Notes under the pieces: model-generated
What the model was told of the DNA's origin: nothing
Database searches by the model: none
What the model saw: only the letters and a program-made list of their open reading frames with translations
In this document: positions 60,564-64,000 of the stretch, piece after piece
How the letters are laid out: the number at the start of each line of letters is the position of its first letter
How positions within the stretch are numbered: position 1 is the first letter of the stretch
Assembly (NCBI RefSeq): GCF_024508235.1
Contig: NZ_CP101943.1
Coordinates: forward strand, 186,001 to 250,000
Direction of reading: 5' to 3'
Source: Halococcus qingdaonensis
GTDB taxonomy: Archaea; Halobacteriota; Halobacteria; Halobacteriales; Halococcaceae
DNA: 64,000 nt
Translations under genes and position numbers: made by a program

Positions 60564-61739
60564 ATGGAACGACCCGCGGTGGGTGAACTCACCCCGCCCA
60601 ACCGAACGCTGATGGGTCCCGGCCCGAGCGACGTCCACCCGCGCGTTCGCCGCGCGATGGCCACGCCGCTCGTCGGTCATCTCGACCCCGCGTTCGTCGA
60701 TCTGATGGACGAAGTCCAGGACCTCCTCCGATACGTCTTCCGGACCGACAACGAGTGGACGATCCCGATCAGTGGGACCGGCTCGGCGGCGATGGAGGCC
60801 GCCATCGCGAACCTCACCGAACCGGGCGACACGGTCGTGGTCCCCGGCAACGGCTACTTCGGCGGGCGGATGGCGTCGATGGTCGAGCGGGTCGGCGGCG
60901 AGACCGTGACGGTCGACGCCCCGTGGGGCGAACCGCTCGATATCGACGACGTGCGTGCGGCCTTCGACGCTCACGATCCCGACCTGCTGGCGTTCGTCCA
61001 CGGCGAGACGAGCACCGGTGTGCTCCAGCCCGACGTGCCGGCGCTCACCGAACTCGCCCACGACAACGACGCGCTCACCATCGTCGACGCGGTGACGACG
61101 TTCGGTGGCGTCGAGCTCAAAGTCGACGAGTGGGAGGTCGACGCGGCGTACTCGGCCGCCCAGAAGTGTCTCTCCGCGCCGCCGGGGGCGAGCCCGCTCA
61201 CGCTCGGCGAGCAGGCGATGGCGAAGATCGAAGGGCGTGAATCGTCGGTGAACTCCTGGTATCTCGATCTCACCGAGCTCACCGATTACTGGGGCGAGGA
61301 GCGTGCCTACCACCACACAGCGCCGATCACGAACGTCTACGCGCTGCGGGAGGCGCTGCGCCTCGCCGCCGAGGAAGGGATCGAAGCGCGCTGGGAGCGC
61401 CACGAACGCGTCGCGAACGGGCTCCGAGCCGGCATCGAGGCGATGGGCCTCGAACTCGCGAGCACGAGCTGGCTGCCGAGCCTGAACACCGTTCGCCTGC
61501 CCGCCGACGTCGAGGACGCGGACGTGACCGACGCGCTGCTCGACGGCTACGATATCGAGGTCGCAGGCGGGCTGGGCGATCTCTCCGGCGAGATCCTCCG
61601 GGTCGGCTGTATGGGCCATTCTGCGCGCCGCTCGAACGTGTTATCGGTTCTCGGCGCGCTCGGCGACGTTCTCGGCGAGAGCGACGGGATCGACGCCGAC
61701 GCGGGACTCGCGGCGGCGCGAAAAGAGCTGTCGAACTAG
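60564..61739 (+). CDS. Class V PLP aminotransferase (alanine/serine-glyoxylate type), second gene
   Basis: A 391-residue enzyme. MGPGPSDVHPRV is the N-terminal substrate loop, SGTGSAAMEAAIANL the cofactor-phosphate loop, IVDAVTTFGG the Asp (about 175) and SAAQKCLSAPPG the Schiff-base Lys (about 201). It has full family length, unlike the shorter gene at 1322, and keeps the SxWYLD and YHHTAPI segments characteristic of alanine/serine-glyoxylate enzymes. Its TAG overlaps the stop of the convergent gene in a shared CTAG. Confidence 0.92.
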   Translation: MERPAVGELTPPNRTLMGPGPSDVHPRVRRAMATPLVGHLDPAFVDLMDEVQDLLRYVFRTDNEWTIPISGTGSAAMEAAIANLTEPGDTVVVPGNGYFGGRMASMVERVGGETVTVDAPWGEPLDIDDVRAAFDAHDPDLLAFVHGETSTGVLQPDVPALTELAHDNDALTIVDAVTTFGGVELKVDEWEVDAAYSAAQKCLSAPPGASPLTLGEQAMAKIEGRESSVNSWYLDLTELTDYWGEERAYHHTAPITNVYALREALRLAAEEGIEARWERHERVANGLRAGIEAMGLELASTSWLPSLNTVRLPADVEDADVTDALLDGYDIEVAGGLGDLSGEILRVGCMGHSARRSNVLSVLGALGDVLGESDGIDADAGLAAARKELSN

Positions 61740-62187: not shown

Positions 62188-62301
62188 TGAGAGACCGTCG
62201 ACGGCGCGTTCCGTGAGGCATATACCGCGGTTGATGATGAGGGTGGTACGGAGTGATCAGCGATCCTTCGCGTCGAATTCCGCACCGTCCCGACCGGTGT
62301 G

Positions 62302-62952
62302 ATGGAAAAGCTCGGCTCTCGCGTCGACGGCGTCCGTAGCATCGAGCTCGACAACGCCTTCTACATCGAGGACGGGAAGTGGATCGAATCGCTCACCATA
62401 TCCTCGACGACTGATTTCGATCCCCACGACGCCATCGCGGACATCTGGGGCGTGCGGATGTTCTACACGCACGAAATTCCGACCGGGCCGTCCGATATCG
62501 TCGTCCGTCGGCTCACGCTCGTCGCCAACGAGTCGTATCCGTTCATCCTCGGACTGGTGCTGCGCCGCGAGGCGATCCCGAACCGGATCGTTCTCCAGGG
62601 GAACGAGTTCGAGGCCGTCGTGACCGCGCGGAACTGGGAGTCGTTTCGGGCGCTCGCCGACGATCTCGAAGAATCACTGGGTGCGTTCGAGCTGCAGAGC
62701 GTGAGTCAAATAGAGAACCCCGGCGAGCCGCTGGACGGTGGCCGAATAACCGAGTTCGTCACGACGAAGCTCGCGGACGAACAGCTCGCGGTGCTCGAAA
62801 CCGCCTACGAACTGGGCTATTTCGACGTTCCGCGAACGGCGTCGACGAACGAGATCGCCGAGGCGCTGGACGTCTCCCAGTCGACAGCCAGCGAGCGACT
62901 GCGGGTCGCAGAACGAAACCTCCTCGCGCTGCTCTACGGCTCACGCGAGTAG
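62302..62952 (+). CDS. HTH-10 (Bat-type) transcription regulator
   Basis: A 216-residue regulator. The N-terminal sensor-like domain (about 1-145) is followed by HTH_10: LADEQLAVLETAYELGYFDVPRTASTNEIAEALDVSQSTASERLRVAERNLLALLYG. It may regulate the binding protein gene that starts 116 bases downstream. The frame stays open upstream to 62257 as SAILRVEFRTVPTGV, which looks like the normal family N-terminus (an R-V-E-F-R strand) but offers no ATG, GTG or TTG; GTG at 62299 or ATG at 62302 are the first starts. Confidence 0.82.
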   Translation: MEKLGSRVDGVRSIELDNAFYIEDGKWIESLTISSTTDFDPHDAIADIWGVRMFYTHEIPTGPSDIVVRRLTLVANESYPFILGLVLRREAIPNRIVLQGNEFEAVVTARNWESFRALADDLEESLGAFELQSVSQIENPGEPLDGGRITEFVTTKLADEQLAVLETAYELGYFDVPRTASTNEIAEALDVSQSTASERLRVAERNLLALLYGSRE

Positions 62953-63067: not shown

Positions 63068-64000
63068 ATGGTACCGAACGACCACCACGAACCGACCGAT
63101 GCCACCAGCACGCGGCGGATCAGCCGTCGACGATGGCTCGCCGCCGCGGCCGGCACCGCCGGCCTGTCGATGCTCGCGGGCTGTAGCTCGGCTCTCGGCG
63201 GGCGCGACGCCGGGAACACCCTCGACGCCGACGTTCCGAAAGGAACGCCCGCGAGCGTCGAGACGAAATACTGGCACGACTGGCCGACACTCGACGACGC
63301 GACACAGGCCGAGGGTCCCCCGCTCGACTACACCGCACGTGCGGGAGCAGCGCTCGAAACGCTGACGATGGAGTTTTCGAGCGACGACGACCCGTGGAGC
63401 AAACAGCACGCGCTGATGATGAAGAGCAGCGTCAACGCGTTGGGCGCTCCCGCTCGCATCGTCGACCGGCCGCTGAACCAACTGTACGCACAGAGCTGGG
63501 ACACGCCGGGACTCGAACACGTGTTCTCGATGAGCACCCACGGCCCGGACCCGGTCCGCGGGATCGGACCGAATGCACTGTTGACGCGGCGCTCAAAGGA
63601 CAGTCCGTTCAACTACGACAACTACTGGCACCCGCGGATCAACGAACTCCTCGACGAACAGGACGAAATCACCGAGGACGAGCAACGACGGGCCGAACTC
63701 GTGCGGGAGATCCAGGCGATCTTCGCCGAGGACGTCGGCGCGATCATCAGCCTCTTTCCGGACGTGATCACCGCGGCGAACACGCGTAATTTCAACGGAT
63801 ACGTTCCGACGCCCGGTCCCGGCCCGACCCGGGACACCTTCCAGTGGACGGAGGTCAACCTCCAACCGCGGACGGGTGATCGGAGCTACGTCAAGGGGAC
63901 GACCACGTCGATGAACTCGCTCAATCAGCCGTGGTCGGCCGGCGGTGCCGAGGAGTACCGCCTCAAATACATCTACGACGGGCTGTTCGACGCCTCGCCG
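63068..64000 (+). CDS. SBP_bac_5-type ABC substrate-binding lipoprotein with permuted lobes, 3' part outside window
   Basis: The first 311 residues are present. The Tat signal ISRRRWLAAAAG and lipobox SMLAGC make it a lipid-anchored extracellular protein. After a short linker comes a segment like the C-terminal lobe of oligopeptide-binding proteins: FSMSTHGPDPVRG, NYDNYWHPRINELLDEQDEITEDEQRRAELVREIQAIFAED and IISLFPDVITAANTRNFNGYVPT. Only then, from about residue 280, comes TSMNSLNQPWSAGGAEEYRLKYIYDGLFDAS, which in ordinary family members is at the N-terminus. The rest, and thus the remaining topology, lies beyond 64000. Confidence 0.8.
   Translation, partial: MVPNDHHEPTDATSTRRISRRRWLAAAAGTAGLSMLAGCSSALGGRDAGNTLDADVPKGTPASVETKYWHDWPTLDDATQAEGPPLDYTARAGAALETLTMEFSSDDDPWSKQHALMMKSSVNALGAPARIVDRPLNQLYAQSWDTPGLEHVFSMSTHGPDPVRGIGPNALLTRRSKDSPFNYDNYWHPRINELLDEQDEITEDEQRRAELVREIQAIFAEDVGAIISLFPDVITAANTRNFNGYVPTPGPGPTRDTFQWTEVNLQPRTGDRSYVKGTTTSMNSLNQPWSAGGAEEYRLKYIYDGLFDASP

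Follow-up and report, generated by a model that had tools for sequence, protein, structure and literature searches.

The gene that begins at position 63068 and runs past the end of the window (the whole 64,000-nucleotide stretch analysed, G000:C1:186001-250000 of the Halococcus qingdaonensis genome) very probably encodes a naturally permuted form of a peptide-type SBP_bac_5 lipoprotein, in which circular permutation has turned the order HEAD-TAIL into TAIL-HEAD; the product would be one bilobed, Tat-exported binding protein that serves a Dpp-type importer and belongs to an old haloarchaeal clade. TAIL denotes the late C-lobe segment and HEAD the N-lobe with the start of the C-lobe, the canonical order being HEAD-TAIL. 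SBP_bac_5 is among the largest solute-binding families. It is likely that five or more permutations of this family have occurred in Archaea, with the cut in nearly the same loop of the C-lobe, that an old event founded a haloarchaeal clade that crossed between Archaea and Alphaproteobacteria, and that one further event is recent. If this holds, the loop marks a hot spot where evolution shifts the ends of the protein, and the process has been caught nearly in the act.

Rotated order of the 657-residue protein

The reading frame at 63068-64000 (+ strand) starts with ATG and is open at the window end. By reading the gene on past position 64000 in the same genome, we obtained a full gene of 657 amino acids without an internal stop (L008:1069-3042, equal to G000:C1:249068-251041). 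Its chain comprises a Tat-type lipoprotein signal, TAIL (residues 92-268), HEAD (272-612), a 45-residue stretch and the stop, with the following features in and beside the window part of the gene:

62299-62952, + strand: HTH_10 (Bat-like) regulator gene, upstream (Pfam PF04967, E 1.1e-18)
63068-63184, + strand: Tat-type lipoprotein signal peptide, residues 1-39 (RRISRRRWLAAAAGTAGLSMLAGC), lipidation at Cys39, read from the sequence
63185-63340, + strand: linker and subfamily-specific N-terminal extension (VETKYWHDW...DYTA), residues 40-91, conserved in subfamily orthologues, with no match in solved relatives
63341-63871, + strand: TAIL (second half of the C-lobe and last crossing), residues 92-268, from profile matches to DppA and CtaP, order set by HMMs
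63872-63880, + strand: new junction of old C-terminus to old N-terminus (..NLQPRTGDRSYVKGTTT..); TAIL ends at residue 268 and HEAD begins at 272
63881-64000, + strand: start of HEAD (N-lobe, including YIYDGLFDASP), cut by the window end, HEAD continuing to residue 612 (Pfam SBP_bac_5, HMMs)

The lipobox LAGC (residues 36-39) is invariant in all four aligned orthologues, and the counterpart of TAIL in canonical SBP_bac_5 proteins is the C-terminal stretch of about 150 residues. The original prediction, that a late segment of the family stands before an early one, was confirmed: NYDNYWHPRINELLDEQ (residues 182-198) lies N-terminal to KYIYDGLFDASP (about 300-311). A profile of residues 64-273 matched the end of solved members and not their start, namely CtaP/Lmo0135 (5isu) at 354-461 (E 2.6e-4) and E. 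coli DppA (1dpp) at 350-495 (E 0.003), while the part after TAIL matched the start of solved relatives, HEAD corresponding to DppA 27-339 in the deep alignment. The reversed order is therefore backed by sequence statistics, beyond motif reading.

The Pfam SBP_bac_5 model (PF00496) matched residues 315-625 at model positions 2-288 of 368 (E 2.1e-49; 169.1 bits against a cut-off of 32.4), which assigns the protein to the family by the curated cut-off, with the model left uncovered at its end in canonical order. The last 80 model positions are absent downstream, and the match ends at position 288 because the remaining part of the model stands in front. TAIL alone had no match in Pfam. Rotating the window protein gained one profile position and no score over the native order, a shuffled-tail control scoring similarly, and in two rotated relatives the match reached no further than model position 336-344 and spanned a long insert; the clear TAIL matches come from profiles and from other members, not from the Pfam scan of the window protein. 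Judged from sequence, the cut site is inside a C-lobe loop, at about DppA 340-350, between the AGY-ending helix and the next strand, and on mapping to DppA the hinge crossings appear untouched. Hence, of the proposal that the lobes themselves had been permuted, the rotated order stands, whereas the lobes are not the units exchanged, the cut lying within the C-lobe and not between the lobes.

Predicted fold and operon context

AlphaFold modelling of residues 39-657 with an alignment of 103 permuted homologues returned one compact, confidently packed domain (mean pLDDT 94.5, pTM 0.93), in keeping with the permutation that had been proposed; an earlier model built from four orthologues (pLDDT 34.8) was set aside. 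In a Foldseek search of the PDB, the best matches were SBP_bac_5-type binding proteins (AppA, NikZ, CtaP and DppA), with TM scores by target of at most 0.55, mostly over about 370-450 columns. Such low scores are expected if two pieces have changed places, as alignment in sequential order then captures just the bigger one. Among the 60 best PDB chains listed for the deep alignment, none had a best stretch that crossed the TAIL-HEAD junction, and no solved structure with the TAIL-HEAD order was found. The rotated chain would probably adopt the bilobed fold of canonical SBP_bac_5 proteins. The earlier suggestion that the rearrangement would change both cleft closure and tethering is kept for the tether, as the anchor would join the body at the C-lobe and not the N-lobe; altered closure is not indicated.

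Downstream of the gene lie two BPD_transp_1 permease genes and one ORF with two ABC_tran and two oligo_HPY regions, the composition of a DppABCDF/OppABCDF-type operon (two permeases, two oligo_HPY ATPases) with the ATPases fused in one ORF. This double-ATPase ORF is a fused DppD-DppF, and the gene heads a dppB-dppC-dppDF operon. Because of this position, the product most likely serves a peptide-type ABC importer as its lipid-anchored binding protein. The permuted protein reached none of the NCBIfam equivalog cut-offs. A reading in which it is a stand-alone binding or sensor lipoprotein, no longer part of a transporter, would fit the conserved subfamily extensions at both new ends, which have no counterpart in solved relatives; however, the gene comes first in an operon with two permease genes and a double-ATPase gene, and the alphaproteobacterial members with annotated neighbours also adjoin permease and ATPase genes, so that we regard this reading as improbable.

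In the mechanism that we favour, a short linker would connect the old C- and N-termini, the C-lobe loop would open to give the new ends, and the chain would fold as one bilobed binding protein. Following Tat export, it would be anchored by the lipidated cysteine attached, in the predicted geometry, to the C-lobe, and ligand would be handed to the DppB/DppC permease, powered by the fused DppD-DppF ATPase of the operon.

From its position, the upstream HTH_10 gene is a possible regulator of the operon. A class-V aminotransferase gene also lies upstream (window 60564-61739, + strand; Pfam PF00266, E 1.2e-27), and beyond the window a TnpB/OrfB-like transposon ORF is found near the operon (L008:8006-9145, + strand), with a zinc-finger motif, TSQTCSRCG..HADLNAAANI, recognised by eye.

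Origin and spread of the permuted order

A recent permuted/canonical pair was found in family f21 of the same phylum, in genus g129, where three genomes carry the permuted lipoprotein (G386, G394, G433) and three the canonical one (G370, G382, G520). Residues 199-514 of the permuted L187 are 86% identical to residues 33-348 of the canonical L191, and residues 29-191 are 85% identical to residues 353-515; against the canonical L193, identity is 84% for the HEAD piece and 89% for the TAIL piece. The swap also shows in the DNA, where identity over the two pieces is 78-80%. In L188 the stop falls directly after AGYSE, at a place where the canonical sequence is AGYSEDNKLKLELWW, and its lipoprotein signal leads into KLKIELWW. 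The permuted gene of this genus is divergent beside dppBCDF-type genes (names judged by eye from ORF starts), and the two forms occupy different loci in the genomes compared. Since both halves are 84-89% identical to one canonical protein, true permutation occurs in SBP_bac_5.

This pair bears directly on the suspicion that TAIL and HEAD were taken from two different binding proteins and fused. For the main clade, HEAD and TAIL were placed jointly in one tree and the deep tree is poorly resolved, which leaves such a chimera some room, but in the recent case both halves resemble the same canonical protein, and we consider the idea unlikely. The original prediction had offered, besides permutation, a C-lobe copy fused in front of a full-length domain. 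Such a duplication also puts the late segment first and could be the expected intermediate, yet the gene ends 45 residues past HEAD, its SBP_bac_5 match stops at 288 of 368, no second TAIL follows in the 657-residue protein, and none of the proteins in the sets scanned has two TAILs. By the criterion set with that prediction, this alternative is refuted, and the downstream sequence supports circular permutation instead. As the window cut the gene and left only half of it visible, an assembly or annotation artefact might also be invoked. The same TAIL-HEAD order recurs in many genera and independent assemblies, complete chromosomes and plasmids among them, and its conservation at 60-64% identity in independently assembled genomes of other genera rules out an assembly error; with the signal peptide in frame directly ahead of TAIL as well, the probability of any artefact is negligible. 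For the circular permutation itself, duplication and fission-fusion models have both been described (PMC3320104). We propose that an SBP gene duplicated and fused, and that the redundant ends would then have been lost while the signal peptide was retained; a TAIL-HEAD-TAIL intermediate was not found in any protein fetched, and fission and fusion may be the origin of the permutants instead.

Using TAIL and HEAD HMMs, built mostly from permuted proteins and still able to detect canonical order where present, we classified 164 distinct SBP_bac_5 proteins as 135 permuted and 29 canonical, a ratio that is no frequency, the sample having been drawn by similarity to permuted queries. Classification proceeded in two batches (126 permuted, 25 canonical and one undetermined, then nine permuted and four canonical new proteins). 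The same HMMs assigned canonical order to the three other SBPs of the window's own genome (L009-L011). Across 295 genomes of the order, about 52 proteins matched the window type over their full length, with scores down to 590 bits against 216 for the next best, and many shorter proteins aligned linearly across the TAIL-HEAD junction. In 40 genomes of the order, at least 41 PF00496 matches, counted by hand among the matches listed and possibly including some weak canonical tails, end between model positions 259 and 298, the majority at 283-288, the edge that permutation predicts. Elsewhere in the phylum, almost every match listed covers HEAD alone, as in canonical proteins. On this sequence-based classification, permuted members are common in haloarchaea, with one large haloarchaeal clade and small separate lineages; the arrangement, expected to be unusual for the family, is not unusual in this lineage.

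For the number of origins, a tree was built from HEAD and TAIL realigned in canonical order. In it, 53 permuted rows form a group next to which, or within which, two canonical rows (L120, L121) fall, and one clade for these main 53 rows was not rejected (AU p 0.32). A single origin for all 55 permuted rows was rejected (AU p 0.0001). Six order changes are required on a 54-row tree, and five is the minimum imposed by its well-supported branches. The exact count is less sure than the plurality itself, given the long deep branches and the unusual composition of some rows, and order changes on the tree do not distinguish gain from loss. One permuted lineage, L172 with L194-L196, is sister to the canonical L059 (100/100) and is cut about one helix earlier, with the AGY helix at the N-terminus. 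The permuted L199 is nested with the canonical L010/L011 (100/100) and has a similarly early cut. L153 (5733-7472, - strand) forms a separate permuted lineage with a C-terminal PGF-CTERM sorting signal and no N-terminal lipobox, its anchor being at the other new end, and L187-L189 form a further one. The canonical haloarchaeal proteins L120 (167-2119, - strand) and L121 (80-2026, - strand) have HEAD and TAIL separated by roughly 90-110 additional residues, precisely where the permutants are cut, which suggests a loop tolerant of change. Two permuted SBP genes also lie on the same strand about 1 kb apart in L155 (995-2770 and 3792-5603, - strand), and likewise in L156, possibly by tandem duplication.

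In bacteria, a tblastn search of the junction region against plasmid records found permuted proteins in the Alphaproteobacteria Ketogulonicigenium (L173), Microvirga (L174), Neorhizobium (L175), Maritalea (L176), Nitratireductor (L177) and Roseomonas (L178). The Nitratireductor protein is 40.5% identical to one from Halalkalicoccus jeotgali, and in trees the bacterial rows fall inside the haloarchaeal clade at two places, which points to transfer between Archaea and Alphaproteobacteria, in either direction. Their N-termini resemble ordinary export signals, without a lipobox in the stretch read; the shift of the lipid anchor is thus not obligatory, and the permutation is not explained by lipid anchoring. 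Divergent beside the permuted SBP operon, an M28-family peptidase gene occurs in two alphaproteobacterial orders (L173 1943-3652; L178 1633-3369), hinting at a peptide or amide substrate. A Rhizobium plasmid carries an 804-residue ORF (L185:1460-3871, + strand) in which HEAD pieces flank a TAIL, and which may represent two fused or misread genes.

Relation to known permutants and significance

DppA, AppA and OppA (PF00496, SBP cluster C) are homologous to the present protein over both segments and likewise belong to DppBCDF-type permease/ATPase operons. Their order is HEAD-TAIL, whereas here it is TAIL-HEAD, with the termini in the C-lobe loop near DppA 340-350. Natural circular permutation is already known, including in one binding protein, TpMglB-2 (Tp0684), a glucose-binding lipoprotein and ABC substrate-binding protein that is circularly permuted in nature and retains ligand binding in experiments (PMC4990184). 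It shares with the present protein the permuted ABC substrate-binding lipoprotein architecture but is a Type I, cluster B (Type Ic, cluster Bc) sugar binder of a family unrelated to SBP_bac_5. Its cut adds a fourth hinge crossing, unlike that of the present protein, and its permuted relatives are mainly from treponemes and Gram-positives, with repeated independent events not described there (PMC4990184). The Type I (cluster B) sugar-binding fold does not apply here, the best sequence and structure matches being SBP_bac_5-type proteins. Saposin/swaposin and the transhydrogenases show the same chain relation, with permutation by duplication or by fission and fusion (PMC3320104); by comparison, at least five events fall here at nearly one loop of one family, one of them readable at the DNA level. 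We found no report of permuted SBP_bac_5 or haloarchaeal binding proteins in a search of the open-access literature.

The recent pair allows the DNA-level origin of a natural circular permutation to be tested directly, and a fresh permutant to be compared with a near-identical canonical protein in folding, affinity and transport. The permuted clade, with its fixed cut site, provides natural C-lobe termini that may be of use in sensor design and for questions about the tethering point. Linear annotation models cover only part of permuted SBP_bac_5 proteins, and in the annotated records checked these are labelled just 'ABC transporter substrate-binding protein'.
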